This document shows, piece after piece, positions 25,429 through 43,502 of a stretch of DNA of 64,000 bases. Origin of the DNA: Verrucomicrobiaceae bacterium (lineage in GTDB: Bacteria; Verrucomicrobiota; Verrucomicrobiia; Chthoniobacterales; Terrimicrobiaceae). A program made the position numbers and the translations under genes. The stretch spans positions 1 through 64,000 of the forward strand of contig QYQL01000004.1 of NCBI GenBank assembly GCA_007280915.1, written 5' to 3'. The notes beneath the pieces were generated by a model that made no database searches, was not told the origin of the DNA, and was given only the letters and a program-made list of their open reading frames with translations. Within the stretch, counting starts at the first letter, position 1. Every line of letters begins with the position of its first letter.

Positions 25429-26568
25429 TCACCGGCTTCGGGTGATGCAAGACACGGGCAGTCGCCGCACATCTCCCGGCGTCACTGGTATTCCGGAATC
25501 GGCGCTGGCGACGGCGGCGAAGCAGATTTCCAGACTGCGTAAATTGTTCCGGGCCGAGTTGATCGGCTCGCGGTTCTCCTCGATCGCGCAGAGGAGTTCC
25601 CCCATCGTGCCGTGCATTCCGTCTGGAACCCATTGCCCCTGAAGGTTCGGGCTGGCAATCCCTGCAGTTGTGTGAAGGGTGACGGTTTGATTTTGCAAAT
25701 CCGGCCCGATGCTTCGCAGGGTTCCTCTGCTGCCGATCACACTGGTGCGGTCCTCCTGTCCGATGACGGTATCCCCGTTGAACGCGATGGTCGCCTGCGC
25801 TCCATCGAAATCAACGGTGACGTGGGCGAGGAGCGGTGGCGTTGCTTTCTGGCTGCCCGAGCGCTCGATCGACGCGAAGACTTTTCTTGCCTGGTGACCG
25901 GTGAAAAAAATCTGGATCAGATCGAACCAGTGGACCGCAAAGTCATACAGGACGAGATGGTGAAGATCGTTGAACGGAGTCGTTGCCGTCCAGTTGTGAT
26001 CCCAATTCACCTCGAAACTAACGCTGCTCAGTTCTCCGATGACTCCTGCTTGAATCGCGTGGCGGATATAGGAAAAGTGAGGTGCCCAGCGGGCGTTCTG
26101 ATTGATTGCCAGCTTCACGCCCATCTCGTCGGCAAGGTCGGCGAACCGGAGCCCGAGGTCCAGATCGACGACAAACGGTTTCTGGCTCAGCACGTGTTTG
26201 CGCGCGTGCAGGGCGGCGGGAATGATCTCCTCGCGTTCGACCGGATGAGCTGCGATGTCCACGACTTCGATGTCGGTGCGTGACAGTAATTCGCGGTAGT
26301 CAGTATGGATCAGCGCTTCAGGATAAAACTCTTTCCGGCGCTCTTCCGCCTTTTCGCGGACTGGATCGCAAAGTGCGACAACCCGGTATCCGGCGGCTTT
26401 GTAAGCTTGGAGATGGGTCCGGGTAATTCCTCCGCACGCAATCAGGCCGATGTTCGGACGGTAGTTTTTCGGGTCACGCGGACGGTAGGGCATTTCCGTA
26501 GCGGGAATTGCCCCCCCCGTTTGGGCCGCCGTGAAGCCGTAGGATTTTTCGGGCGCTTTGTCGTTCAT
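25429..26568 (-). CDS. Gfo/Idh/MocA-family oxidoreductase
   Basis: 379 residues from the ATG at 26568. The frame is open further upstream but runs into the neighbouring gene. The Rossmann nucleotide site is NIGLIACGGITRTHLQAY, followed by VVALCDP. SQKPFVVDLDL carries the conserved catalytic lysine of the family's EKP motif, and INQNARWAPHFSYIR follows. HWFDLIQIFF holds the usual His. No signal peptide, so it is cytoplasmic. The family oxidises or reduces sugar derivatives with NAD(P). It is last of five close genes (8 bp after the previous), so likely part of a sugar-catabolic operon. Confidence 0.9.
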   Translation of the reverse strand: MNDKAPEKSYGFTAAQTGGAIPATEMPYRPRDPKNYRPNIGLIACGGITRTHLQAYKAAGYRVVALCDPVREKAEERRKEFYPEALIHTDYRELLSRTDIEVVDIAAHPVEREEIIPAALHARKHVLSQKPFVVDLDLGLRFADLADEMGVKLAINQNARWAPHFSYIRHAIQAGVIGELSSVSFEVNWDHNWTATTPFNDLHHLVLYDFAVHWFDLIQIFFTGHQARKVFASIERSGSQKATPPLLAHVTVDFDGAQATIAFNGDTVIGQEDRTSVIGSRGTLRSIGPDLQNQTVTLHTTAGIASPNLQGQWVPDGMHGTMGELLCAIEENREPINSARNNLRSLEICFAAVASADSGIPVTPGDVRRLPVSCITRSR

Positions 26569-26576
26569 CGGGGGAG

Positions 26577-27659
26577 TCAACCGAGCAGCGGCACCGTGCG
26601 TTTTTCCCGCGCGCTCAGGACGGCGGAGTCCACGATCTGCTGTCCGATTCGGGAAATCTCCGGCGAGAGCGGACCGTCGATTTTTTCGCCGTGTTCCAAG
26701 CAGTGCAGGACATGGTTGATCGGGTTGTTTGCAGGCGGCTCCAGCTTTTCGGCGGGGAGTTTGAGGGGCTCCGGCTGTCCTGTCGTCTGCACGCTCACGA
26801 AAGGCTCGTAGTCGTAGGAGCAGATCGTGCCCTCCGTACCGACGACGACAAACCCGCATTTCGGCTGGGGTTGGTGCGTCCAGGGATCGGTGAAGGTTCC
26901 CCAGCGGGTTTCAAATTTTGAGAGCCCGCCCGCATAGCGCGCGATGGTGATCGAGTGTTCGTCGACCTCCAGCCCCTCAGGTTCGTCCACCATGGCTGTC
27001 ACCTCGATGGGGAGCCTGCCGCTGTGGAACCAGGTTCCGAGCGTCGTGCCGTAGCCAAGGTAATCCAGCAAGGAACCGCCGCCCTGGTCTTTCTGGTAAA
27101 ACCAGCTTTCGGATTTTTTTCCGGGCTCGGATTCCACTTTGTCCGCCCCATGCCGCAGCGGCCCGCGATTGCCGTCATAGTAATGGACTTCGAGCACATC
27201 GCCGATCCGGCCCTCATCGATCATCCGCTTGGTCATGACATGAGGCGGATACCAGCGCAGCGGCCAGTTGATGATGAGTTCCCGTCCGGTTTCAGCCAGC
27301 GCAGCAATCATCCGGTCGGCTTCCGCAAGAGATGCGGCGAACGGCTTCTCCACCATGACGTGAGAGCCGAAGGGGGCGACCTTTTCCGTCCACTCAGCAT
27401 GCCTTGCCGTCGCCGGACACAGGATCACGAGATCGGGCTTTGTCTTTTCAAGGCACTCGCAATAATCGGAAAAAACCCGGTCCTGCGGGATGGACAATGC
27501 CTCGGCTGCTGCCACCATGCGGGCGGGTTTCGCGTCGCTGATCCCGACGATTTCGGCATCCGGATGCGCGAACACCTGCCGCAGCAGGTCGCCCATATGC
27601 ATGTGGTCGAAGTTGATTCCCGCGATCTTCCATTTCTTGTCGAACAGGCGATTTTTCAT
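26577..27659 (-). CDS. Gfo/Idh/MocA-family oxidoreductase
   Basis: 360 residues from the ATG at 27659. WKIAGINFDHMHMGDLL replaces the usual glycine-rich GxGxxG loop with GINFDHMH, so cofactor binding may be altered. VGISDAKPAR, VILCPATARHAEW and HVMVEKPFAASLAEAD match the family, with the EKP lysine present. WPLRWYPPHVMTKRMI and a C-terminal alpha/beta sheet domain follow. It is cytoplasmic. It lies 20 bp after the GH127 gene and 8 bp before another Gfo/Idh gene, suggesting the two work in sequence on the sugar released by GH127. Confidence 0.88.
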   Translation of the reverse strand: MKNRLFDKKWKIAGINFDHMHMGDLLRQVFAHPDAEIVGISDAKPARMVAAAEALSIPQDRVFSDYCECLEKTKPDLVILCPATARHAEWTEKVAPFGSHVMVEKPFAASLAEADRMIAALAETGRELIINWPLRWYPPHVMTKRMIDEGRIGDVLEVHYYDGNRGPLRHGADKVESEPGKKSESWFYQKDQGGGSLLDYLGYGTTLGTWFHSGRLPIEVTAMVDEPEGLEVDEHSITIARYAGGLSKFETRWGTFTDPWTHQPQPKCGFVVVGTEGTICSYDYEPFVSVQTTGQPEPLKLPAEKLEPPANNPINHVLHCLEHGEKIDGPLSPEISRIGQQIVDSAVLSAREKRTVPLLG

Positions 27660-27679
27660 GATGTGGGCTAAGAGCCTGC

Positions 27680-30106
27680 TTATTCGCCGGGCGCCTTCTT
27701 GAAGACAGCGATCTCTGAGAATCCGGCCGATCTGGTGGTCGGGCTCACGCGGGTGATGATGACCTCCATCCACGTGATCGTCTTTTCCGGGAAGTTCATT
27801 TTGAAAGGGGTGATGCCGTCGTTGGGAAGTTGATCCACCATTTCGGACGAGCCGTCGCTGAAGTTCACCCAGGCGCTCAGGACCTGGTCAGCCTCATTGG
27901 GGCGATCAAAGAACCAGACATCCTCAATGGTGATGGGCTTGTCCCACGTGAGTTTTACCTTGGTTCCCGTTGTGGCGTGATCGCTGGCCCACTCCGCCTT
28001 CTGGTTTTGGGGATAGCCTTCGGCCACACCGTCGATGAGTGCCGCATCCGAAAACCCCTTGCTCGTACTGGTCACTTCGATCTTGGCTTTGGCGGCCAGA
28101 TTGTCGCTTTTCTTGATCAGCCCGACCGACTTCATGTCGGTGAAGGCTGTGCGCCGCAGGAGGCTGGTCCCGATGGGAACGAGACGGACTTCCTCCAACT
28201 TGTTCGTCTTCCGGTTGAGAAGACGTCCCTTTAACGCCACGGGCGATGCACACCAGGGCAAACCGGAGGATGCCTTCGGGGAGCGTTCCAATTGGAAATC
28301 TCCGCTATCCTTGTCCACCGCATAATCCCAGATTGCACCCTCCTTCGGCGTGATGTCCCAGTCGGCGAATCCCTCCACGGCATACTTTTTCGTCGGAGTC
28401 TGCTCGGATGGAATCGGGAGCGCGAAAACCAATGGTCCCCGGCGCCAGAAGATCTCGCCGTTCGGAGCCTTCTTCTGGACGATCTCGGGGGCGAAAGACA
28501 ACGTGATCTTGTCTCCCGTATTCCATTTCTTCGTCACGATCTTCCAGCCCTTTTCCTCGCGGATTTCCGCGCCGGGGGCGTCCACGCGGACACTGCCCGG
28601 CCAGGCCGGGATCCTCAGCCAGATCGGGAACTCGACGGGCTTGTCGGCTTTCAGCGTCATCCTCACTTCATCCTCGAACGGATAGCTCGTGTCGGTATCA
28701 ATCGTGACAGGAACCCCGTCCACTTTTGTCTGCAAGGAGTTCGGGGCGTAGGTCACAGCGGCCAGGCCGTTGCCGCGAGCCTCCTTCATCCACAGATAAT
28801 TGGTGAGGTAGGCATACATCTTGCCCGCGGTGGGCGGGCAGCAGACGGCCACGTCCTCGTGCGTCGGCGAATACTTGCAGCGTCCGCCACGTTCCTTGTG
28901 GGTGGCCTGGAATTGGTTGTCGTATCCCTCGTATTGGATTCCGCACGTGGCCTGATTGCCGTCGCGCATCCGCGCGCCCTGGGCGGCGCTGTAGGCGAGC
29001 CATTCGATCCAGTCACCCAGATCGGCGCGCCCGGTCTTTTCCACGCCTGATTGAAGGCTGTTGAGAAGCTCGAACATCGTGCATTGCTCGTGGGTGAGAT
29101 AGGGGGATGAAAGCCTCTGGCGGATATCCTCGTCGCCGATGCAGGCCCCGCTGGCACCGGTGTGGCGGGCGGTTTTCATGAATTCGTTTTCCACCGCCAC
29201 CCGGTATTTGTCGTCGCCGGTGGCGTAGTAAACAAATAGCGGAACGCGGAGGTGTTCCGTGATATGCGCGCAATGCCCGGCAAACAGCTTGTCAGGATCG
29301 GCGAGATTCCTCAGAAGGATGTCCGCATCGAAGACTTTTTCCGGCACGTTGTATCCGTCGTAGAGGAACTGCGCGAAGTCCACGTAGCGCTTCTCGCCCG
29401 TGATCCGGTAAAGGTATTCGCACACGTCAACGAACATCAGGCTGTGTGGCGGGCCTCCGCGGGGGATCGCCTCGGGCCAGTAGGGACGGTCCTTGCCATA
29501 CTTCGAGAGCGTCAGGTCCACCGCCCGCTGGACTGCGGCCAGCACATCCTTGCGGCCGGTCAGTTCGTAATAGGCCAGCAAACCTCGGAACAGGCAGGCC
29601 TGATCCCACAACTCGCCGTTGTTCGGCTGGCCGAGCGGGCTTTGATAGCGCAGCCCACGCGGATAGGCACCCAGATAGCCGTCATCCTCCTGCATGGCCA
29701 GGACTTTGGAGACCAGTTCATCCACACGGGCCTTCGCCTGTGGGTCGTCGGCCAGGTAGGCCATCCGGATGAAGCTGTCCAGCCAGTTCCCGGTGGTTTC
29801 ACCGACCCACCAGACGCCGCCGATTTTCGGCTGCTCCATATCCGCTTTTTTGCGGGTGTCGAATGTGGAGAGGTTGCAGTAATCCGGAGTGAGCTTGTCG
29901 AGCACGGGAGTGAATCCGTTTTTCACATCGTTGCGGAGCTGCTCAAGCAGCCAGCCGCGCGGCTTCACTTCCCCCGCCGGAAGGAATTGGAATTTTGGCG
30001 TCACCGGCTTGGCGGACTCCGCGCTCCAGCCGGTGTGCAGAAGAACTGGGACGATGGCGAGGATTGCGAGTTTTTTCATAAGGGGTTTCTTCGGTTCGGA
30101 GGTCAT
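27680..30106 (-). CDS. GH127-type glycoside hydrolase (DUF1680) with C-terminal discoidin-like domain
   Basis: 808 residues. The ATG at 30106 overlaps the stop of the transporter gene (ATGA); a second ATG at 30079 directly precedes the signal peptide KKLAILAIVPVLLHTGWSAE and could be the real start. The catalytic part has the metal/nucleophile signature of beta-L-arabinofuranosidases: HEQCTMFE (Glu-x-Cys) and VAVCCPPTAGKMYAY with Cys422 and Cys423, corresponding to the zinc-cysteine pair of HypBA1. The last 130 residues (IEVTSTSKGFSDAALIDG ... WMEVIITRVSP) resemble an F5/8 type C module. It is predicted to be exported and to release L-arabinofuranose-like residues. Confidence 0.88.
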   Translation of the reverse strand: MTSEPKKPLMKKLAILAIVPVLLHTGWSAESAKPVTPKFQFLPAGEVKPRGWLLEQLRNDVKNGFTPVLDKLTPDYCNLSTFDTRKKADMEQPKIGGVWWVGETTGNWLDSFIRMAYLADDPQAKARVDELVSKVLAMQEDDGYLGAYPRGLRYQSPLGQPNNGELWDQACLFRGLLAYYELTGRKDVLAAVQRAVDLTLSKYGKDRPYWPEAIPRGGPPHSLMFVDVCEYLYRITGEKRYVDFAQFLYDGYNVPEKVFDADILLRNLADPDKLFAGHCAHITEHLRVPLFVYYATGDDKYRVAVENEFMKTARHTGASGACIGDEDIRQRLSSPYLTHEQCTMFELLNSLQSGVEKTGRADLGDWIEWLAYSAAQGARMRDGNQATCGIQYEGYDNQFQATHKERGGRCKYSPTHEDVAVCCPPTAGKMYAYLTNYLWMKEARGNGLAAVTYAPNSLQTKVDGVPVTIDTDTSYPFEDEVRMTLKADKPVEFPIWLRIPAWPGSVRVDAPGAEIREEKGWKIVTKKWNTGDKITLSFAPEIVQKKAPNGEIFWRRGPLVFALPIPSEQTPTKKYAVEGFADWDITPKEGAIWDYAVDKDSGDFQLERSPKASSGLPWCASPVALKGRLLNRKTNKLEEVRLVPIGTSLLRRTAFTDMKSVGLIKKSDNLAAKAKIEVTSTSKGFSDAALIDGVAEGYPQNQKAEWASDHATTGTKVKLTWDKPITIEDVWFFDRPNEADQVLSAWVNFSDGSSEMVDQLPNDGITPFKMNFPEKTITWMEVIITRVSPTTRSAGFSEIAVFKKAPGE

Positions 30107-31467
30107 TGATCGATCCACATTTTCTCGATCTGCTCGAGCGTGCGGCCTTTGGTTTCGGGGATCATGGCAAGGACGAACAGGAACGAGAGAAGGCTGACGG
30201 CCCCATAAATCCAAAACGTCAGCGCCGGTCCGATGGCGGGGTTGTCATTCATCATGGGGAAAGTCTGTGCGACGATGAAGCAGGAAACCCAGATGGTGAC
30301 CCCAGCCACCGACATCGCGCGTCCGCGGACCTTGTTTGGAAAAATTTCCGAGCAGATCAGCCAGGCGAGAGGGCCCATGGCCATCGCATAGGCGGCTGTG
30401 AAGCCGATCACACACAGGAGCAGCGGCAGGCCGCTCACGCCGGTATGGAACATCCAGCCGACAAGTCCGAGCGCGACGGTCTGCACGGCTGTGCCGATGA
30501 GCAGCAGTGGACGCCGACCCGCCTTGTCCACGAAACCGATGGCGACGAATGTGAAAAACAGGTTGATGAGGCCGACCCAGACGGACGAGGTAAAGGCAGC
30601 ATTCGTGCTGCCGCCGGCGGTGGCGAAGATCTTGGTGGAGTAATACATGATCGCGTTGATGCCGCAGAACTGCGAGCACATCATCAATATAACCGCTATG
30701 ATGAGAGGCTTTCGGAACGGGCCGACCAGGAGTTCGGACATCCGCCCTTCCTCGTGGCTCATGGATTCGCGGATGGCACTCATTTCCGCCGCGGCGTGTT
30801 CCGCGCCATCCACCTTGGTGAGGATTTCGCGGGCTTCCTCATCGCGGCCTTTTTGCGCGAGCCAGCGCGGGCTTTCGGGCACGGTGAACAGCAGGGCGAC
30901 GAACGCGAGGGCTGGCACAACCTCCATGCCGAGCATCCAGCGCCATCCGTAGGCGGTGTTCCATGCCTCGTCGCCCATGCCCTGAATGAGGCTGTTGATG
31001 AAGAGCGTGAGGAAGATCCCCGTGACGATGCCGAGTTGGAAAAGCGTGCCGAGGCGTCCGCGCCATTTCTCCGGCGCGATTTCCGCGATGTAGATCGGGC
31101 AGATCATCGAGGAGGCCCCGATGCCGAGCCCGCTGATGATGCGGGCGACAAGAAACTGATTGAAGGTGTTCGGGATTGCGGAGAGCACACCGGAGATGGC
31201 GAAGAGCAGCGCGCAGACAAAAAGCATTTTCTTCCGTCCGAATCGGTCGCTCAAAAAGCCGGCGCACATCGCGCCGGGTATGCATCCAAGAATTGCGCTC
31301 GCAGCGGCCAGCCCCACCTGTGCGGGACTGAGGTTCATGTGCGCCTTCAGATAGGAATTCGCGCCGTTGATGACCGCAGTGTCATAGCCGAAGAGAAAAC
31401 CGCCGATGGCGGTGACCGCGGTGGCGAACAGCACGAAACGGATGTTGGATATGTGGGGGGCATTCAT
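30103..31467 (-). CDS. MFS sugar porter (sugar:proton symporter family)
   Basis: 454 residues, 12 transmembrane helices. Family motifs are clear: FGYDTAVINGA in helix 1, FLSDRFGRKKML between helices 2 and 3, ISGLGIGASSMICPIYIAEIAPEKWRGR, VPESPRWLAQKGR at the central loop, FCGINAIMYYST in helix 7, VDKAGRRPLLLIG and PETKGRTLEQIEKMW at the C-terminus. It belongs with XylE/AraE/GalP-type symporters. It overlaps its neighbours on both sides by ATGA and probably imports the monosaccharide made by GH127. No binding protein or TonB system lies nearby. Confidence 0.94.
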   Translation of the reverse strand: MNAPHISNIRFVLFATAVTAIGGFLFGYDTAVINGANSYLKAHMNLSPAQVGLAAASAILGCIPGAMCAGFLSDRFGRKKMLFVCALLFAISGVLSAIPNTFNQFLVARIISGLGIGASSMICPIYIAEIAPEKWRGRLGTLFQLGIVTGIFLTLFINSLIQGMGDEAWNTAYGWRWMLGMEVVPALAFVALLFTVPESPRWLAQKGRDEEAREILTKVDGAEHAAAEMSAIRESMSHEEGRMSELLVGPFRKPLIIAVILMMCSQFCGINAIMYYSTKIFATAGGSTNAAFTSSVWVGLINLFFTFVAIGFVDKAGRRPLLLIGTAVQTVALGLVGWMFHTGVSGLPLLLCVIGFTAAYAMAMGPLAWLICSEIFPNKVRGRAMSVAGVTIWVSCFIVAQTFPMMNDNPAIGPALTFWIYGAVSLLSFLFVLAMIPETKGRTLEQIEKMWIDQ

Positions 31468-32843
31468 GATTTCCAGAGATCTTCTCCATATTCCCACCCC
31501 TTGGGTGCCGGCTCCTTGATGAATGCGTTGAGCTCGGGGCGGTTGGTGATTTTCATGGCGGCGGAATCCCATTCGATGCGGCCGCCGTAGAACTGCGCCA
31601 AGGCCCCGAGGCACGCGACCTCGGTCAGGCGTGCCGAGTAATCGAAGTTCGAACCGGGCTCCGGACCCTCGCCCTTGATCGCACGGATCCATTCCGGCAT
31701 CGGGCCGGAATCCGGTGCGTTCTGCGGCAGGCGCGGATATTTTTCCGGGGGCATTCCGGACTCCTTGAACGCCTGCATCTCCTCCTTGTTGACGAGGCGG
31801 GGATTGTTCGAGAGTTCGTCGAGGAAAACGGTTTTCTTCGAGCCGCGGAAGAAGGAACCAAATTTTGGCAGGGTGCCCCACGACCAATCCGGCGGCATGG
31901 GAGGCTGGTTGCCGCCGTCATACCACCGCAGCGTGCAGGGGGGCATTTCTCCGCGTGCGGGGAAATCCCATCGAAGAATCGAGCCGTCTGGGCACATACC
32001 GGGATTCGGGCCGTCGATTTTTTCCGCTTCGATGACGGTCGGTTCGAAGAGCCCGAGCGTCCAGACCGGACCGTCGCATATGTGGCAGAACCAGTCACCG
32101 ATCATGCCGCTGCCGAACCGCGGAAATCCGCGCCAGGTCTTGTATTCGTAAATCGTGTTGAACCCGGGATCCTCCGCCGGGCCGAGCCAGAGCGGCCAGT
32201 CGAGTTCCGGAGGGACCGGCATGCGCTCCGGCGGGAAGGTCTCCGGCTTTCTGAAAGCCGGTCCATTCCAGTTCGGGCCAGGATACCAGGAATCCACTTG
32301 GGCAACGGATCCTGGAACGCCAGCCTCGAACCACTCCCGCATCTGGCGGATGCCGGAATACGTGTGGCCCTGGTTGGCCATGTTCGTCACCACTCCGTAT
32401 TTTTGCTTTGCCTTCCGCAGCGTTCTGGCTTGCCAGACATTGTGAGTCAGAGGTTTTTGGGTAAGCACATGTTTGCCGCGCTGCATCGCGTCCATCGTTG
32501 CGGCGAAGTGTGTGTGATCGGGCGTGCAGATGACGACGCCATCGATGTCCTTGCCCATCTTGTCGAGCATCACGCGGAAATCCCGGAATCGGGCCGCAGT
32601 TGCCATCTGGGGGTTGAGGTCGGCGTGAACGCTCAGATTCTTTTCGTTCACGTCGCAGATGGCCACAAGGTTTTCACCGATGGCCGCCTTGACTGCCACC
32701 CCGGCGATGCCTCCCGTGCCGATCAGCGCGAGGTTCAGCTTGGAATTGGCCGGTTTGCCGGACTGTCCGATGGCGAAGCGGGGAAGCGCCCACGATCCCG
32801 CAGCAGCGGCGCCCGTTTTGAGGAATACCCTTCTGCTGATCAT
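31464..32843 (-). CDS. Tat-exported Gfo/Idh/MocA-family oxidoreductase
   Basis: 459 residues from the ATG at 32843. The start is set by the Tat signal: SRRVFLKTGAAAAGSW with the twin arginines at residues 4-5, then a hydrophobic stretch. The Rossmann motif is LALIGTGGIAGVAVKAA, and HVLTQKPLTHNVW carries the family lysine. A long C-terminal part contains WPLWLGPAEDPGF and DWFCHICDGPVW, as in the PVC-type subfamily. Export in folded form with bound NAD(P) or a related cofactor is implied. It is the first gene of the five-gene operon and faces the PAS-AraC regulator. Confidence 0.9.
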   Translation of the reverse strand: MISRRVFLKTGAAAAGSWALPRFAIGQSGKPANSKLNLALIGTGGIAGVAVKAAIGENLVAICDVNEKNLSVHADLNPQMATAARFRDFRVMLDKMGKDIDGVVICTPDHTHFAATMDAMQRGKHVLTQKPLTHNVWQARTLRKAKQKYGVVTNMANQGHTYSGIRQMREWFEAGVPGSVAQVDSWYPGPNWNGPAFRKPETFPPERMPVPPELDWPLWLGPAEDPGFNTIYEYKTWRGFPRFGSGMIGDWFCHICDGPVWTLGLFEPTVIEAEKIDGPNPGMCPDGSILRWDFPARGEMPPCTLRWYDGGNQPPMPPDWSWGTLPKFGSFFRGSKKTVFLDELSNNPRLVNKEEMQAFKESGMPPEKYPRLPQNAPDSGPMPEWIRAIKGEGPEPGSNFDYSARLTEVACLGALAQFYGGRIEWDSAAMKITNRPELNAFIKEPAPKGWEYGEDLWKS

Positions 32844-32913
32844 ATTATTCACGATAAAGCACCGGCACAGCCAGCGCTTGTAGAAACATGCCAAGTTTGT
32901 GTATTTTCAACGC
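32844..32913. promoter_or_regulatory. Divergent promoter region between operon and PAS-AraC regulator
   Basis: These 70 bp separate the Tat-Gfo/Idh gene (minus) from the regulator (plus), so both promoters and any AraC-type operator must lie here or inside the coding ends. The segment is A/T-rich next to each start codon, but I cannot name convincing -35/-10 boxes or repeated half-sites. Confidence 0.35.
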
Positions 32914-33660
32914 ATGAATAAGCGTCATTCTCAACAGGAATTTTTGGGGAGGATGGACTGGCACCGCACCTTTGGACAAATTCTGGACCTCCTGCCCGAT
33001 GTGGCATTTTTCATGAAGGATCGGAGGGGGAGATTCGTGATGAACAACCGCCGTGCCTGTGAATACTGCCGGGCCGCATCGGAGGAGGAAACCCTCGGAA
33101 AAACCGACGCCGATTACTGGCCGGCGGACCGAGCCAGTTCCTATTCGGAAGGGGACCGGCAGGTCATGACGACCGGCCAACCGATTCTGAACGCGGTGAG
33201 TTCCGCGCCGGAGGAGGCTGGCTCCGACCGGCTGATCATCTATAGCAAAGTGCCCGTGCGCGATCTCAAGGGCCGCATCATCGGGATTGCCGGCATCCAT
33301 CGGGAGATCGACGCGAAGCGATTCGCGATGGCGTCCTACGGTCGCATCGGCGAAGCCGTCCGGCTGATGCACGCCCGGTTCGCCGAGGACTTGAAGACGC
33401 GTGATTTCGCGAAGGTGGCGGGCCTTTCGCCCAGCCAGTTCAACCGCCGTTTCCGGGCTCTCTTTGGCACTACTCCTCGCGAGTACCTGCTGCGGGTGCG
33501 TGTGAATTCGGCGTGCCGGTTTTTGGAAACCACCGGCTGGACGGTGGCGCGCGTCGCGCTGGAAACCGGCTTCTTCGACCACAGCCACTTTACCAGGATC
33601 TTCCGTCGGCTCATGGGGTTGACTCCGGCAACCTACCGGAAGATGCACTCGCCGGGATGA
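32914..33660 (+). CDS. PAS-domain AraC-family transcriptional regulator
   Basis: 248 residues from the ATG at 32914 (an upstream GTG at 32899 would add five residues). The N-terminal half (about 15-135) is a PAS-like sensor: LLPDVAFFMKDRRGRFVMNN, EETLGKTDADYWP and IYSKVPVRDLKGRIIGIAGIHREI. The C-terminal half has the two AraC helix-turn-helix motifs, LKTRDFAKVAGLSPSQFNRRFRALF and WTVARVALETGFFDHSHFTRIFRRLMG. It is expected to sense a small molecule or redox signal and control the divergent GH127/transporter operon. Confidence 0.9.
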   Translation: MNKRHSQQEFLGRMDWHRTFGQILDLLPDVAFFMKDRRGRFVMNNRRACEYCRAASEEETLGKTDADYWPADRASSYSEGDRQVMTTGQPILNAVSSAPEEAGSDRLIIYSKVPVRDLKGRIIGIAGIHREIDAKRFAMASYGRIGEAVRLMHARFAEDLKTRDFAKVAGLSPSQFNRRFRALFGTTPREYLLRVRVNSACRFLETTGWTVARVALETGFFDHSHFTRIFRRLMGLTPATYRKMHSPG

Positions 33661-36795: not shown

Positions 36796-37665
36796 TCACT
36801 CCGTGTGATGTTCGCGCCGGTATTCCTTCGGGCTGGCCCCGGTGAGTTTGCGGAAGCGGAGGTTGAAATTGGAGAGGCTTTCAAAGCCGCTTGCGTAGGC
36901 GATTTTGGAGACGGGATGATCGGTCTCGATGAGGAGTCTGGATGCATGGCCGATGCGGACCTCGTTGATGAAGTCCGTGAGCGTGCGGCCGGTGACCCGC
37001 TTGAAATAGTGGCAGAATGCCGAGAGGCTCATCGCCGCCTCGCGCGCAATATCCTCGTGCCGGATGGGCGCCGCGAAATTTTCAAAGATGAACCGGTAGG
37101 CGCGGTTGATGCGTTCGCCGGCGAATGCGTCGAGCACCGGCAGGAACCCCGGACTTGAGAGGATGCGGGCCTCGTCCGATTCCATGAGCCGTTTGAAGAT
37201 GTTGAGGAGGGCGAGGACGCGGTCGAAGCCTTTGCCGGATGGCATGCCTGTCATGAGTTCCGCCACGGCGTCGCGTGTTTTTCCGGTGAATTGGAGCCCC
37301 CGCCGTGCGCGCAGGAGGAGGTTGCGGACGCCGGTCAACTCGGGGAGTCCTAGGAAGTCCGCTCCGAAGCATTCCTCGCGGAAATGCACGACCACCGCCT
37401 GCGATGGCGTCTTTTTTCCCTGTTCGCCGTTCCTCCAGAAGTGAGGCAGGTTCGAGCCGATAAGAACGAGATCCCCAGGAGAGAACGGCTCGATGCTGTC
37501 GCCGACGAACCTCCTCCCGCTGCTCTGAACGATGAGGGTGAGTTCACATTCGGGATGGAAATGCCAGGGGACTTTGAAGCGGGGCAGCGTGAATTCCTTC
37601 ACCGCGAATGAATACAGATCGCTCTTTGGGATCAATTCGAACCCGGCTTTGCTGGGGAGTTGCAC
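36796..37665 (-). CDS. AraC-family transcriptional regulator with cupin sensor
   Basis: 289 residues. The N-terminal half is a cupin-type sugar-sensing domain (WHFHPECELTLIVQSSGRRFVGDSIEPFSPGDLVLIGSNLPHFW). The C-terminal half has two helix-turn-helix motifs, APIRHEDIAREAAMSLSAFCHYFKRVTG and HPVSKIAYASGFESLSNFNLRFRKLTGASPKEYRRE. It lies between the DoxX operon and the divergent P450/UroD operon and could control either or both. Its own promoter shares the 135-bp region 37666-37800 with the plus-strand operon. Confidence 0.93.
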   Translation of the reverse strand: MQLPSKAGFELIPKSDLYSFAVKEFTLPRFKVPWHFHPECELTLIVQSSGRRFVGDSIEPFSPGDLVLIGSNLPHFWRNGEQGKKTPSQAVVVHFREECFGADFLGLPELTGVRNLLLRARRGLQFTGKTRDAVAELMTGMPSGKGFDRVLALLNIFKRLMESDEARILSSPGFLPVLDAFAGERINRAYRFIFENFAAPIRHEDIAREAAMSLSAFCHYFKRVTGRTLTDFINEVRIGHASRLLIETDHPVSKIAYASGFESLSNFNLRFRKLTGASPKEYRREHHTE

Positions 37666-37800
37666 GACCGTGGCAGGCTAATGACACCCGCCAGTCCGGG
37701 CAAGTCCGGTTCCGTCAATACAGCGGAAGTCTTTAGCCATGTAGGAGAAGACAGCGCGCCAGGTGTGTGTTAAGCAACGACGGCCAAAATAAAATCCAGA

Positions 37801-38631
37801 ATGAAACTAAAGCTCATCCGTCATCTTTGGGGAGTGGACCTGACACACGGTCTTCAACAGTATCTACCGCGCTGGCGCGAAGCCGGCTACGAGGCGATCG
37901 AGTCATCGATCCGCACCGTGCCCGATCGCGCCGAGTTGCTGCGCTTCCTCAATGAAAGCGGCTTCGAGTGGGTGCCGCAGATCTTCAGCCGCGACTTTGT
38001 GGCGGGCGGCTCGGTGGACGAGCATCTGGATTCGCTCCGGATCCAGATCGAGGAGTGCCTTGATCACGGGCCGATTTTCTTCAACGCTCACTCCGGCTAC
38101 GACAACTGGAGTCCCGCCGAGGCGGAGGAATTTTATGGCCGGATGCTCGACATGGAAAAGAAACTCGGCGTGCCGGTGGCACACGAAACGCACCGGTTGC
38201 GCTGGTTCGGCACTCCATGGCAGACCCGGCACATCCTGAAACTTTTTCCCGACCTGCGCCTGACCTGCGACTTCAGCCACTGGGTGTGTGTTTGCGAGCG
38301 TCTGCTGCCGGATTTGGATGAGACGATCGCGATGGCGGCACGGCAGTGCCTTCACCTTCACGCCCGCGTCGGGTTTGAGGAAGGACCACAGGTTCCGGAT
38401 CCCTCCGCGCCGGAATACGCCGTTCACCTGGCAGCGCACGAACGTTGGTGGGATGTCATCTGGCAGGCCCAGCGGGAGCGCGGGGTCGCCGAGTCGTTCC
38501 TGACGCCGGAGTTCGGTCCGCCGCCCTATATGCACACGCTGCCACACACGAATGTCCCCGTGGCGGATCTCGCCACAGTCTGCGACTGGATGGCTCGCCG
38601 GCAGGTCGGTCGCTTCGCTTCGATCAATTAG
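37801..38631 (+). CDS. Sugar phosphate isomerase/epimerase (AP endonuclease family 2 fold)
   Basis: 276 residues, cytoplasmic. The TIM-barrel xylose isomerase-like fold is indicated by YEAIESSIR, FFNAHSGYDNWSPAEAEEFYGRM, VPVAHETHRLRWFGTPWQ with a metal-binding Glu, TCDFSHWVCVCE, CLHLHARVGFEEGPQ and FLTPEFGPPPY with the second metal Glu. It probably isomerises or epimerises an unusual sugar. It is first in a five-gene plus-strand operon. The P450 gene starts four bases after its stop. Confidence 0.85.
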   Translation: MKLKLIRHLWGVDLTHGLQQYLPRWREAGYEAIESSIRTVPDRAELLRFLNESGFEWVPQIFSRDFVAGGSVDEHLDSLRIQIEECLDHGPIFFNAHSGYDNWSPAEAEEFYGRMLDMEKKLGVPVAHETHRLRWFGTPWQTRHILKLFPDLRLTCDFSHWVCVCERLLPDLDETIAMAARQCLHLHARVGFEEGPQVPDPSAPEYAVHLAAHERWWDVIWQAQRERGVAESFLTPEFGPPPYMHTLPHTNVPVADLATVCDWMARRQVGRFASIN

Positions 38632-38635
38632 CGCG

Positions 38636-39772
38636 ATGAATTCCGATCCCTTCCGCGAAGCACGGAATGACACCGGCATCCTGAAGTGTCCGTTTCACGG
38701 TGAGGAAATCCCCATGCTCCTGCGTCATGAGGACGTGCGACGTGCGGCGAAGGATTGGAAGACATTCAGCTCGGACGCGCCGTTCCGCGTGCCGATTCCC
38801 TCCGAGGAGGAGGTTCGCACGATGCGTCAGCTTCCGATCGAGACCGATCCTCCCGAACACACCGACTACAGGAAGATCACCGATCCGTTTTTTCAACGTC
38901 CGAAGGACCCCGCGTTCATCGCGAAAATCGAAGGCATGGTTGACGGGATGCTCGCGGATGCGATGGGCCGCGATTCGGTCGAGATCGTAAACGGGTTTGC
39001 GCTGCCGCTTCAATCCCGCGCGCTCACCCACCTTCTCAACGTGCCGGAATCCGAAGCGGAGACTTGGATCGGCTGGGGGATCCATGTTTTCAAGGTCACC
39101 GGAGGCGAATTCAAAAAAGGCAACGTGCTCGAGGATTACCTGCGTGGGCAGTTCGATCGCGCTGAAGCTGCTCCCGGGGAGGATTTTTTCAGTGTTCTCA
39201 CGCAGGCGACCTTTCGCGGCCGGCCGCTCACCTGCGAGGAGATGATGGGCTTTGCCAATCTCGCATTTGCCGGCGGACGCGACACGATCATCCACACGAT
39301 TTCCTGTGCGCTTGGATATCTGGCAGAGCATCCCGGGGAGCTGGAGTTTCTGCGCGGGGACCCGAAGCGGATCACCCACGCAAGCGAGGAATTTTTCCGC
39401 GTGTTCATGCCGCTCACCCACATCGGGCGCGTGTGCCCGGAGGAGACGGAGGTGAACGGCGTCACGGTCCGGGCCGGGGAGCGCGTTTCGCTCTGCTGGG
39501 CTTCCGCCAACATGGATGAGCGGGCCTTCGACGCTCCGGACGAAGTGCGGCTCGACCGCAAGCCCAACCCCCATCTGGCATTCGGCTTCGGCACGCACCT
39601 CTGCATGGGCGCGCCCCACGCGAGACTGATCCTCCGGACGCTTCTCCAGAAATGCACTGAACGGATCGCCCGCATCACCGTGCTCGAATCAAAGGAGCGT
39701 GTGGAAAGCGAGGCCAGTTACACGCGCACGCTGGGATACGAGTCGCTGACCGTCCGCCTGACGCCGCTTTGA
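38636..39772 (+). CDS. Soluble cytochrome P450
   Basis: 378 residues from the ATG at 38636. The haem thiolate is Cys323 in FGFGTHLCMGAPHARL. The I-helix reads LAFAGGRDTIIHTI, with the oxygen-activating acid/threonine pair, and the K-helix ExxR is EFFR in SEEFFRVFMP. DPPEHTDYRKITDPFF matches the helix-C region. There is no membrane anchor, so it is a bacterial class I type needing a ferredoxin and reductase, neither of which is encoded nearby. It is one of a very few P450s found with sugar isomerases, suggesting O-demethylation or hydroxylation of a sugar. Confidence 0.93.
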   Translation: MNSDPFREARNDTGILKCPFHGEEIPMLLRHEDVRRAAKDWKTFSSDAPFRVPIPSEEEVRTMRQLPIETDPPEHTDYRKITDPFFQRPKDPAFIAKIEGMVDGMLADAMGRDSVEIVNGFALPLQSRALTHLLNVPESEAETWIGWGIHVFKVTGGEFKKGNVLEDYLRGQFDRAEAAPGEDFFSVLTQATFRGRPLTCEEMMGFANLAFAGGRDTIIHTISCALGYLAEHPGELEFLRGDPKRITHASEEFFRVFMPLTHIGRVCPEETEVNGVTVRAGERVSLCWASANMDERAFDAPDEVRLDRKPNPHLAFGFGTHLCMGAPHARLILRTLLQKCTERIARITVLESKERVESEASYTRTLGYESLTVRLTPL

Positions 39773-39788
39773 AAAACCACAACAGAAT

Positions 39789-40799
39789 ATGAACTCAAGA
39801 GAACGTGTCTTCGCCCACTTGAAGGGGGAGCCGGTGGATCATCTGCCGCTGCTGCCCATCACCATGCAATTCGCCTGCCAGCAGATCGGCGCGAAATACC
39901 GGGACTACTGTACCGATTACCGGGTTCTAGTAAAAGGCCAGATCCATGTCGCGCGGGAATTCGGGCTGGATTACGTGAACACGATGTCCGATCCAGCGCG
40001 CGAGGCTGCGGACTGCGGTGCGGAGGTCGAATATTTTGAAGAGCAGCCGGTGGCGCTCATCGAGGACCGCGCGCTGCTGGCGGACAAGGCGCGCCTTGCC
40101 AGCTTGAAAATTCCCGACCCGTTGGGTGGCGGACGCATGCACAACGGCATTAAAGCGCTCGCACTCTTCAAGGAGCAGGTCGGCGGAGAAAAAATCATCG
40201 AGGGATGGGTCGAGGGACCGATCGCCGAGGCGGCCGACCTGCGCGGGATCAACACGCTCATGCTGGATTTTTATGACGACCCGGAATTCGTGCGCGACCT
40301 TTTCGCGTATGTCGTGGAGATGGAACTGCGGTTCGCCCGGGAGCAGGTGAATGCCGGGGCGGACATGATCGGGATCGGGGATGCCGCCGCTTCGCTGGTC
40401 GGGCCGGATATCTATGAGGAATTTGTCTGGCCGTATGAGAAGCAACTCGTCGATGGCATTCACGCGCTCGGCGTGCCGACGCGCCTGCACATCTGCGGGA
40501 ATACACGCCGCATCATCGGCGGAATGGGCCGGCTCGGCTGCTCCATCGTGGAAGTGGACTCGCTCACTCCGCTGGATCTCGCTCGTGCGGAAATGCCCTC
40601 ACAGATCATCCTGGGCAACCTCAACCCCGTGACCATCCTGCGCAATGGTAATCCGGAGATCGTCTCCGAAGCGGTGGCGCAGTGCCATCGCGATGCCGGC
40701 GGCCGGTTCATTGTCGGAGCCGGCTGCGAGGTTCCGCGCGACACTCCGCCGGCGAATCTCCACGCGCTTGGAAACTACGCACTGCACAACAGCCCGTGA
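39789..40799 (+). CDS. UroD/MtaA-family protein (methyltransferase-like)
   Basis: 336 residues in the uroporphyrinogen decarboxylase superfamily: MNSRERVFAHLKGEPVDHLPLLP at the N-terminus, YVNTMSDPAREAADCGAEVEY and GADMIGIGDAAASLVGPDIYEEFVWPYEK. A likely zinc site is H234-x-C236 (LHICGNTRRI) with C313 (GAGCEVPRDTPP). This is the pattern of the methylcobalamin:CoM methyltransferases MtaA/MtbA, rather than true HemE, whose catalytic Asp/Arg residues differ. It could transfer or accept methyl groups, but no corrinoid protein is present. It lies 16 bp after the P450. Confidence 0.8.
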   Translation: MNSRERVFAHLKGEPVDHLPLLPITMQFACQQIGAKYRDYCTDYRVLVKGQIHVAREFGLDYVNTMSDPAREAADCGAEVEYFEEQPVALIEDRALLADKARLASLKIPDPLGGGRMHNGIKALALFKEQVGGEKIIEGWVEGPIAEAADLRGINTLMLDFYDDPEFVRDLFAYVVEMELRFAREQVNAGADMIGIGDAAASLVGPDIYEEFVWPYEKQLVDGIHALGVPTRLHICGNTRRIIGGMGRLGCSIVEVDSLTPLDLARAEMPSQIILGNLNPVTILRNGNPEIVSEAVAQCHRDAGGRFIVGAGCEVPRDTPPANLHALGNYALHNSP

Positions 40800-40859
40800 C
40801 CGGGCTTGAAGTTCCATTGGACATCAAGCCGGGTAAAATGAGATTCATGCCTTGATTCC

Positions 40860-41672
40860 ATGACCGCCTCTTCCCGCCGCCTTGCCGTATGCAGTTGGTC
40901 GCTCCAGCCGACTGGCCCGCAGGATTTGCTCGCCAAGCTGGATGCGACCGGCATCCCGCGCCTTCAGATTGCGCTCGATCCCCTGCTCGAAGCCCCTGGT
41001 ATTTGGGAGGAAGTATTGCTTCGCGCGGATGGCGTGGAGATCGTCTCCGGGATGTTCGGCTGTGCGGGGGAGGATTACACGACGCTGGAATCGATCCGGC
41101 TCACGGGCGGGGTCGCGCCCGATGCGACATGGGAGAAAAACCTCGCTCACATCCGCGCTGCTGCAAAACTCGCCGTGGATCTGGGGCTGAAACTTGTCAC
41201 GTTCCACGCCGGGTTTCTCCCCCATGATGATTCGGATCCTGCCTTCGGCAAAATGCTCGGACGCCTTGAGACGGTGGCGGGGATTTTTTCGGATGCGGAA
41301 ATTCTCCTCGCCATGGAAACCGGTCAGGAGACCGCAGACTCCCTTGCGCTCTTGCTTCAAAGCCTGCCCGGGGTCGGGGTGAATTTTGATCCCGCGAATA
41401 TGATTCTTTACGACAAAGGGGATCCGATTGCGGCTGTGCGCACGCTCGGGCCATGGATCCGGCAGGTTCACATCAAGGATGCCATCCGGACCAAGGTGCC
41501 CGGCACATGGGGTGGGGAGGTCGCCGTCGGCAGCGGAGAGGTGGACTGGCCGGGATTTTTCCGGGCGCTTGAAGAGTTGAGCTTCACCGGAAATTATGTG
41601 ATCGAGCGCGAGGCCGGGACGCAGCGGATCGCAGACATACTCACCGCACGCGAACTTGTCTTGAACCACTGA
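40860..41672 (+). CDS. Sugar phosphate isomerase/epimerase (AP endonuclease family 2 fold)
   Basis: 270 residues. A xylose isomerase-like TIM barrel is indicated by LAVCSWSLQPTGPQDLLAKL, LGLKLVTFHAGFLPHDDSD, ILLAMETGQETADSL with a metal Glu, GVNFDPANMILYDKGDP with Asp, RQVHIKDAIRTKVPGTWGG with His, and GNYVIEREAG with the second Glu. This set of metal ligands is complete. It overlaps the downstream Gfo/Idh gene by one base (TGATG), a sign of coupling. The two genes likely catalyse successive steps on one sugar. Confidence 0.88.
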   Translation: MTASSRRLAVCSWSLQPTGPQDLLAKLDATGIPRLQIALDPLLEAPGIWEEVLLRADGVEIVSGMFGCAGEDYTTLESIRLTGGVAPDATWEKNLAHIRAAAKLAVDLGLKLVTFHAGFLPHDDSDPAFGKMLGRLETVAGIFSDAEILLAMETGQETADSLALLLQSLPGVGVNFDPANMILYDKGDPIAAVRTLGPWIRQVHIKDAIRTKVPGTWGGEVAVGSGEVDWPGFFRALEELSFTGNYVIEREAGTQRIADILTARELVLNH

Positions 41673-42694
41673 TGTCCGCTCAATCCAACAAGCAGGTGAA
41701 CGTGGCCGTGGTCGGCCTGGGATTCATGGGAGTGACCCATCTCCGCGCGCATCTCGACAATCCGGCAGCCCGTGTCGTCGCCGTTTGCGATGCCACCCGC
41801 ATTCCGGTCGATGGAGTGATTCCCGGCGTCGCGGGCAACATCAAGAAGTCCGACGACATCCGCCTGGGTCCGGAGGTGAAAGTCTTTCGAGATCTCGCAG
41901 GGGTGCTTGCGGATCCGGAGGTGGAGATCGTGGACATTTGCACGCCGACCGCATTGCACCCTGAGCAGGCCATCGCCGCATTGCGGGCGGGTAAACATGT
42001 CCTCTGTGAAAAGCCGCTTGCCCGCACGTCCGCGGAGGCGATGGAAATCCTCAAGGTTGCGGCGGAATCCCCGGGCATGCTGATGCCCGCGATGTGCATG
42101 CGGTTCTGGCCCGGATGGGCCTGGCTTAAACAGGCGGTCGAGGAGGAATCCTTCGGCCGGGTCCTGGCTGCCAACTTCCGCCGCGTCTCAGAAATGGCCC
42201 CGTCCGCCCGCCAGGGATCGTATTCCGGCGGCGCGCTGTTCGACCTGCACATTCACGACAGCGACTTTGTCAACTTCCTCTTCGGACGTCCCGAGAGTGT
42301 TTTTTCGACCGGCGTCACCGGCCCGGCGGGCGATGTCAACCACGTCGTGACCCAATATCATTTTCCCGGCGGTCCGGTCGTCCATGCCGAGGGAAGCTGG
42401 CTCCTTGCCAAAGGCTTCAATATGGCCTACACGCTCCACTGCGAGCGGGCTACGCTGGACTTCGACCTGGCCCGCGGGGCGGATGCGCTGCACGTCACGG
42501 AAGAAGGATGCGAGCCCCGCATCGTGAAACCGGACGGGCCGGATGGCTACGGTGTGGAAACACGCTACTTTGTGGACTGCGTGACCAAAGGCCGCCCGCC
42601 GCAGATCGTCACCGCGCAGGATGGTGTGACCGCACTCCAGATCTGCGAGGCGGAGGAACAGTCCATTCGCACAGGAAAGCCGGCCGGAATTTGA
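41672..42694 (+). CDS. Gfo/Idh/MocA-family oxidoreductase
   Basis: 340 residues, cytoplasmic. NVAVVGLGFMGVTHLRAHL is the classic GxGxxG Rossmann motif. HVLCEKPLARTSAEAME carries the EKP lysine, and LFDLHIHDSDFVNFLFG holds the conserved Asp/His pair, so it has all key residues and should use NAD(P). It is probably an inositol- or sugar-type dehydrogenase or an epimerase-coupled oxidoreductase. It is last in the five-gene operon beginning at 37801. A 40-bp gap separates it from the convergent proB gene. Confidence 0.92.
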   Translation: MSAQSNKQVNVAVVGLGFMGVTHLRAHLDNPAARVVAVCDATRIPVDGVIPGVAGNIKKSDDIRLGPEVKVFRDLAGVLADPEVEIVDICTPTALHPEQAIAALRAGKHVLCEKPLARTSAEAMEILKVAAESPGMLMPAMCMRFWPGWAWLKQAVEEESFGRVLAANFRRVSEMAPSARQGSYSGGALFDLHIHDSDFVNFLFGRPESVFSTGVTGPAGDVNHVVTQYHFPGGPVVHAEGSWLLAKGFNMAYTLHCERATLDFDLARGADALHVTEEGCEPRIVKPDGPDGYGVETRYFVDCVTKGRPPQIVTAQDGVTALQICEAEEQSIRTGKPAGI

Positions 42695-42734: not shown

Positions 42735-43502
42735 TCAGCGCTTCTTTTTTGAGGGAACAGGGAATCTTGTTCCGACATCTTTTCCGGCGAGGGCGGCGGC
42801 GATCTGGCCGGGTTTGCGTCCGTCGAGGATGGTGCAGGGGATGCCGGAGGAGACGGCAAGCTTGACGGCTTCGAGTTTTGTTTTCATGCCGCCGACGGAT
42901 TCCTCGCCCTTGTCGGGGCGGACGAGCGAGGTGACGGCGGAGATGTCTTTGACTTCGGGAATGCGCGTGCCGGAGGCGTCCTGGAGCCCGTCGACGCTGG
43001 TGAGGACGATGAGGTGGTCGGCGCGGATGAGCTGGGCGACTTCAGCGGAGAGACGGTCGTTGTCACCGAAGCGGAGTTCCTCGACGGCGACGGAGTCGTT
43101 TTCGTTGATGATGGGGATGACGGAGCCTGAGGAGAGGAGGCGGTCGAGCGTATTTCTGGCGTTGGAGCGGTGCATCCGGCTGTCGATGTCGCCGTGAGTA
43201 AGAAGGAGCTGGGCGACGTGGAGGCGGTGGGTGCGGAACGAGGCGGCGTAAAGGCGCATGAGCTCGGGCTGTCCGGCGGCGGCGCAGGCCTGCTTGCCGG
43301 GGAGGTCGTCGGGCCGGCGGGCGAGGCCGAGGACGCGGACGCCGGCTGCGATGGCGGCGCTGCTGACGAGAATGCAGGAGATACCGTTTTTGCGGAGGGC
43401 GGCGACCTCGCGGGCGATGCGCCGGAATTGAGCGGTGTCGAGGGCGCGTCCGCCGGAGCGGGAGAGGACGCCGGTGCCGAGTTTGATGACGAGACGTTTC
43501 AT
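42735..43502 (-). CDS. proB: Glutamate 5-kinase, short form without PUA domain
   Basis: 255 residues. It phosphorylates glutamate in the first step of proline biosynthesis. KLGTGVLS is the N-terminal nucleotide/phosphate loop, then VSSAAIAAG, NARNTLDRLL, PIINENDSVAVEELRFGDNDRLSAEVA and GGMKTKLEAVKLAVSSGIPCTI follow, all typical of the amino acid kinase fold. The C-terminal PUA domain found in E. coli ProB (total about 367 residues) is absent. It starts at 43502, overlapping the holB stop by ATGA, so holB and proB are cotranscribed. Confidence 0.93.
   Translation of the reverse strand: MKRLVIKLGTGVLSRSGGRALDTAQFRRIAREVAALRKNGISCILVSSAAIAAGVRVLGLARRPDDLPGKQACAAAGQPELMRLYAASFRTHRLHVAQLLLTHGDIDSRMHRSNARNTLDRLLSSGSVIPIINENDSVAVEELRFGDNDRLSAEVAQLIRADHLIVLTSVDGLQDASGTRIPEVKDISAVTSLVRPDKGEESVGGMKTKLEAVKLAVSSGIPCTILDGRKPGQIAAALAGKDVGTRFPVPSKKKR

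Follow-up and report, generated by a model that had tools for sequence, protein, structure and literature searches.

What does an operon do that sets a cytochrome P450 and a relative of corrinoid methyltransferases among enzymes for processing a sugar? The question is raised by a locus in a 64,000-nucleotide stretch (the window) of contig QYQL01000004.1 (assembly GCA_007280915.1) from a Verrucomicrobiaceae bacterium of the phylum Verrucomicrobiota, whose genome (G000) comprises 3.56 Mb in 190 contigs and is 91% complete. Five plus-strand genes encode a xylose-isomerase-like TIM-barrel protein (Iso1, 37801..38631), the P450 (38636..39772), a UroD-superfamily protein (39789..40799), a second xylose-isomerase-like TIM-barrel protein of the sugar isomerase/epimerase kind (Iso2, 40860..41672) and a Gfo/Idh/MocA dehydrogenase (41672..42694). 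The open reading frame (ORF) coordinates agree with the initial annotation of this DNA, which described intergenic gaps of 4, 16, 60 and -1 bases and a divergent AraC-family regulator with a cupin-like N-terminal part (36796..37665, minus strand, GTG start). Position 37666 is the start of the divergent intergenic gap, with the first operon gene beginning at 37801, and the P450 starts at 38636, the in-frame ATG after Iso1, within a mechanical ORF that begins at 38552. Our results indicate that these genes probably form an inducible operon for the breakdown of an O-methylated sugar (or of a sugar acid or cyclitol), relying on demethylation by the P450 and by corrinoid chemistry of the UroD-like protein; the link to an O-alkylated sugar drawn in the initial annotation is plausible. 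The operon is real and well formed, and its pairing of a P450 with a corrinoid methyltransferase is recurrent and undescribed in the literature searched: all parts belong to known families, and the combination is new.

The P450 (p450, PF00067) is single-copy in its own genome. Among solved structures, sequence comparison places 6G5O closest to it (E 1e-108), and its best fold match is 6G5Q, "The structure of a carbohydrate active P450" (template modelling score (TM) 0.91, 46-47% identity), after which the fold matches drop to a TM of about 0.8 and 22-29% identity; as the predicted local distance difference test (pLDDT) value of the model is 74, the fold match counts as supporting evidence only. 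We take 6G5Q to be a structure from work on the 6-O-methyl-D-galactose demethylase. The haem motifs recognized in the initial annotation withstood alignment, the haem ligand Cys323 and the haem-loop residues being invariant in 94 aligned relatives including 6G5O. With 47% identity to 6G5O, the specificity of the enzyme may have shifted, and the P450 might then hydroxylate a sugar or cleave an ether carrying a non-methyl substituent, with the UroD-like protein acting on an unrelated methyl donor. However, 91 positions are common to at least 98% of the 94 relatives and to 6G5O, many of them outside the haem site (including R51, P55, E57, R61, R64, Q65, W144, W147, H150, R215 and D216), and we regard such a shift as very improbable. 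Judged by its conserved residues and top structural match, the P450 is a member of the carbohydrate O-demethylase (6G5O/6G5Q) subfamily, the kind of enzyme that the initial annotation had proposed.

The P450 family is common: scanning GTDB genomes yielded 512 relatives, and the 80 inspected were all from Verrucomicrobiota or its genera, many from lakes and ponds. All loci compared in related genomes were selected for P450 or UroD, and their genes were called by a simple script, with a tblastn check for key families only. Sulfatases account for 29 of 87 immediate neighbours of the P450 relatives, which fits methyl removal by these P450s during the breakdown of sulfated polysaccharides. Oxidative demethylation of 6-O-methyl-D-galactose has been described in Zobellia and Formosa (PMC10033563). 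The P450 studied here resembles that system in its subfamily and in the polysaccharide-gene and sulfatase setting, but it occurs in another phylum, lacks an adjacent ferredoxin/reductase or zinc alcohol dehydrogenase, and lies in an AraC-controlled sugar-isomerase/Gfo operon next to a UroD-type methyltransferase. The initial annotation had contrasted the operon with known P450s that have dedicated ferredoxins and no UroD protein. This holds in so far as the operon contains no P450-type ferredoxin, but it is not a general contrast: genome G002 carries AraC, UroD, a 2Fe-2S ferredoxin (7334-7645) and P450 in one locus (L045:5285-8857), where the P450 has its own redox partner and the UroD lacks the zinc triad described below.

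The UroD-like protein matches URO-D (PF01208, 2.8e-60). Its best curated family is MtaA/CmuA (TIGR01463, 2.5e-42), where its 145.3 bits lie under the cut-off of 235.4, marking it as related to, and not a member of, the curated family. Its best solved relatives by both sequence and fold are the MtaA structures 4AY7/4AY8 (model pLDDT 88). The zinc triad of MtaA is matched in the alignment by H234, C236 and C313, residues that every window-type UroD retains; they form the His-x-Cys...Cys site that the initial annotation had likened to that of methylcobalamin-dependent methyltransferases. Most other UroD subfamilies in the same genomes lack the triad. That the protein is instead a HemE of haem synthesis, or a decarboxylase, placed in the operon by chance is hardly credible: it shares the fold of HemE (TM 0.87), but it scores only 64.7 bits against TIGR01464 (cut-off 302.95), lacks the HemE motif RQAGR, carries the zinc triad and has MtaA as its nearest solved relative, and a separate HemE is encoded on contig C61 of the same genome. 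The HemE/decarboxylase identity was rejected on these grounds, and a methyltransferase of the methylcobalamin kind, as seen in the initial annotation, is supported.

The genomic contexts of its relatives point in the same direction. The window-type UroD is present in 6 of the 213 genomes of the order sample and in 46 of the 384 genomes of the class sample, and RACo occurs in all six of the former against 11 of 213 overall (p 3.8e-9, relatedness uncorrected). Among the class-sample loci that were read, its nearest relatives (73-75%; L193, L194 and L195) sit in operons of corrinoid protein, homocysteine methyltransferase and UroD, and others lie beside MtaB, corrinoid protein, DUF1638 or RACo (L157, L214, L215, L218, L221-L223, L225 and L226). 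CmuA-like enzymes show that a zinc-triad UroD is capable of donor-side methyl transfer. Since the operons of the nearest relatives already contain an acceptor-type enzyme (PF02574), the UroD-like protein may be a donor-side methyltransferase.

These contexts also bear on the proposal of the initial annotation that the UroD-like protein processes a one-carbon compound formed by the P450, formaldehyde or a derivative. The tight coupling of the two genes favours such a role, as does the lack of the formaldehyde-activating enzyme Fae in the 12 genomes searched, which means that formaldehyde needs another outlet; binding of formaldehyde by a thiol on the zinc is conceivable. However, UroD relatives mostly occur with corrinoid proteins and without a P450, and no UroD-superfamily enzyme is known to use formaldehyde. 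The enzymes listed in PMC13222342 and PMC10418091 are methyltransferases. The corrinoid proteins, RACo, DUF1638, MtaB and homocysteine methyltransferases around the relatives favour a separate methyl-transfer route without formaldehyde, and we consider the one-carbon proposal improbable.

Several further arrangements were seen around UroD genes of the class. A unit of corrinoid protein, homocysteine S-methyltransferase (PF02574) and triad UroD occurs in several families (L195, L193, L194 and L213) and resembles a compact system for methyl transfer that lacks a named donor. Tandem arrays of at least six divergent UroD-like genes are found in L212, L216 and L215 (G280, G258 and G242), adjoined by a corrinoid protein in G258 and G242, and some genomes carry 30-40 UroD candidates.

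Is the association of the P450 with this methyltransferase more than an accident of one genome? The P450 adjoins a triad UroD in four genomes: that of the window, G084 (contig C1, L038), G213 (L060, identical contig in G352) and G214 (L106, identical match in G465). On the UroD tree, the P450-adjacent label needs three changes, two of which are forced by strong branches; the pairing has at least two and probably three origins on this tree. The P450s of the window and L060 are 85% alike and their UroDs 42% alike, showing that different UroD lineages joined similar P450s. Among nine genomes with both genes, three adjacent pairs have a chance of about 2e-8 under random placement. Within the order, P450 and RACo show a modest tendency to occur in the same genomes (4 of 15, p 0.004, relatedness uncorrected). 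In G002 and on contig C20 of G084 (L042), a P450 follows a different type of UroD behind the same kind of AraC; these UroDs lack the zinc triad and were not counted as the same pair, and a 64% relative of the L042 type directly follows MtaB in G291. All five families of the operon, whose co-occurrence the initial annotation had suggested checking, are clearly together in only one other genome (L060), which rules out the five-gene set as a generally conserved unit; the recurring core is P450 and UroD, joined in some loci by Iso1. The pair in G084 (L038) lies inside a glycan-utilization locus with GH78, GH35, GH95, GH9-like and SASA carbohydrate esterase genes, of which GH78, GH35 and GH95 point to a rhamnose-, galactose- or fucose-containing, possibly methylated, polysaccharide.

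In three genomes the P450 and the whole corrinoid machinery lie in one cluster of 20-30 kb. That of G213 (L060, L152-L153; ~27 kb) contains, in order, two Gfo genes, an Iso2-like gene, NagB, Iso1, P450, UroD and ketohexokinase, with other genes between the Iso2-like gene and NagB and between NagB and Iso1, and, in its later part, DUF1638, RACo, AraC, homocysteine methyltransferase, corrinoid protein, URO-D and MtaB. G214 (L106 and L154) carries P450, UroD, Gfo, a 273-aa protein, DUF1638, RACo and AraC and, ~13 kb on, corrinoid protein, URO-D and MtaB. In G291 (L260-L261, ~20 kb), P450, DUF1638, RACo and AraC are followed at some remove by UroD, homocysteine methyltransferase, corrinoid protein, URO-D and MtaB; between its P450 and DUF1638/RACo genes there are also three tandem, closely similar, secreted-looking proteins of 402-407 aa (L260:8864-13129), the first of which has no Pfam match. 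A full set of candidate components for a three-component corrinoid demethylase (MT1, corrinoid protein, MT2 and activase) is absent from the window operon but is encoded in the clusters of G213, G214, G291 and G065, where either methyltransferase might take either role. The genome of the window has its own cluster on contig C100 (L056:3457-11704), encoding AraC, corrinoid protein, URO-D, DUF1638, MtaB, AraC, RACo and homocysteine methyltransferase (domain matches PF02607+PF02310, PF12176, PF07796, PF14574 and PF02574).

MtaB belongs to the methanol:corrinoid methyltransferase family (PF12176, 5e-162) and is present in C100 and in the clusters of G213, G214, G291, G048 and G065. This suggests another account, in which one polysaccharide delivers different methyl sources: the P450 would act on a methyl-ether sugar, UroD, MtaB and the corrinoid protein on methanol or another donor released alongside, and the genes would be co-located because the diet delivers both. 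Most UroD relatives being far from any P450 agrees with it. However, the UroD of the window lies between P450 and Iso2 in a tight operon without MtaB, and one AraC clade fronts both P450-only and UroD-only operons, so that we find this account unlikely on the whole. The AraC clade (support 97 in the Shimodaira-Hasegawa-like approximate likelihood ratio test, SH-aLRT) unites the regulator of the window (HTH_18 and a weak Cupin_2 match) with AraCs beside P450s (L041, L042 and L045) and AraCs of UroD/corrinoid operons (L159, L225 and L227), and some 30 other AraCs from the same loci fall outside it. A family without a confident Pfam match (weak DUF455) was also observed beside UroD/corrinoid operons (L225:5666-7141, L195:6365-7789 and L159:11445-12008), as the first gene after the AraC of this clade in L225 and L159.

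Several findings weigh against a joint demethylation operon as the function of the locus. The operon has no corrinoid protein, the machinery being on the separate contig C100, and the UroD-like protein falls short of the MtaA/CmuA cut-off. Neither ferredoxin nor reductase is present in the operon, and the search for a ferredoxin elsewhere that the initial annotation had suggested found Fer2 (2Fe-2S domains being the only type sought) just in NuoG in this 91% complete genome. Most relatives of the P450 have no UroD neighbour. Co-occurrence of the two genes per genome in the class sample is not significant (9 observed, 5.75 expected, p 0.10), and it is therefore the adjacency of the genes on the chromosome that supports the link. 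The AraC clade was seen only among loci selected for P450 or UroD, where its other contexts would have escaped notice.

The sugar-processing genes provide the remaining part of the picture. Iso2 matches AP_endonuc_2. Iso1 itself has no Pfam match, and its family is known only via a 53% homologue in L060 that matches AP_endonuc_2 (8.6e-11); the "two sugar isomerases" of the initial annotation therefore stand at fold level only. In L060 and L062, a homologue of Iso1 (52-53%) immediately precedes the P450 gene. The dehydrogenase (GFO_IDH_MocA) has inositol 2-dehydrogenase and levoglucosan dehydrogenase as its nearest characterized kinds, with scores under all curated cut-offs.

Taken with these genes, joint demethylation would proceed as follows. 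The AraC protein would probably sense a sugar, and the P450 would hydroxylate its O-methyl group with O2, which would free the sugar and give off formaldehyde. As a zinc-dependent corrinoid methyltransferase, the UroD-like protein would transfer methyl between a methylated substrate and a corrinoid protein, or else pass it on from that protein to a thiol or folate, borrowing the corrinoid protein, the reactivator RACo, DUF1638, MtaB and the homocysteine methyltransferase encoded on C100. The two isomerase-like proteins and the Gfo/Idh dehydrogenase would then process the demethylated sugar. What the sequences show is the family of each protein, the zinc triad, the operon itself, the repeated pairing of P450 with UroD and the presence of corrinoid machinery in the same genomes; the demethylation activity of each enzyme, their common substrate and the direction of transfer by UroD are what we infer here. 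A more specific version can be proposed tentatively, in which the UroD-like protein is itself an O-methyl-sugar:corrinoid methyltransferase and the operon holds two interchangeable demethylases for one sugar, the P450 using O2 and the corrinoid enzyme independent of it.

Each component resembles a known system and departs from it. With MtaA/MtbA/CmuA (TIGR01463; 4AY7) the UroD-like protein shares fold, HxC...C triad and full-length similarity, and its relatives likewise lie beside corrinoid proteins and MtaB; it differs in its score (145 of 235 bits), in its sugar operon and in its host, a bacterium with an O2-dependent P450 and no known coenzyme M. Split corrinoid methyltransferases are known to have RACo (DUF4445) and DUF1638 as partners (PMC5764234, PMC12478193). 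The same components, namely a methyltransferase of the UroD superfamily or another kind, a small corrinoid protein, RACo/RamA, DUF1638 and a homocysteine methyltransferase, characterize corrinoid O-demethylases and split methyltransferases (MtvB/OdmB/MtoB, PMC13222342; MtgBCD with RamA and DUF1638, PMC12478193; split methionine synthase with DUF4445 and DUF1638, PMC5764234), for which, however, neither an accompanying P450 nor a place in a sugar-catabolic operon is known. The mlp gene clusters also contain homologues of soluble coenzyme M methyltransferases in bacteria (PMC10418091), but they are proposed for methyl-sulfur/selenium compounds in anoxic settings, and the main text of that paper names no P450, DUF1638 or Verrucomicrobia. 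No paper on sugar demethylation by Verrucomicrobia P450s with corrinoid enzymes was found in the open-licence literature searched; the initial annotation likewise knew of no described pathway with this composition.

Around the operon, a weak terminator-like hairpin (42754..42773, plus strand) lies 60 bases past the Gfo/Idh gene; it is not above chance, hairpins here being no more frequent than in shuffled sequence, and both promoter and terminator scans were uninformative. Scans for RNA features detected neither tRNAs nor riboswitches nor any other such element close to the operon. A second sugar locus lies 4 kb off on the minus strand (25429-32894), with a GH127-type glycosidase, a major facilitator superfamily (MFS) sugar transporter and three Gfo/Idh genes, facing another AraC of the PAS type (32899-33660).

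Methyl ethers shield algal and plant polysaccharides from breakdown. Two ways of removing them have been known separately, oxidative sugar demethylation by P450s in marine bacteria and corrinoid demethylation, mainly of aromatic ethers and amines, in anaerobes. This freshwater-type operon, together with relatives that have the same P450 within or next to full corrinoid methyl-transfer clusters, suggests that two different chemistries serve one methylated-sugar pathway, and if it does hold two demethylases for one sugar, the bacterium could demethylate algal or plant sugars on either side of the oxic/anoxic boundary. The joined cluster would extend corrinoid chemistry to sugar ethers in Verrucomicrobia of the aerobic type and would provide one branch of the numerous UroD-like genes of unexplained role in this phylum with a function, giving an enzyme pair that can be tested.

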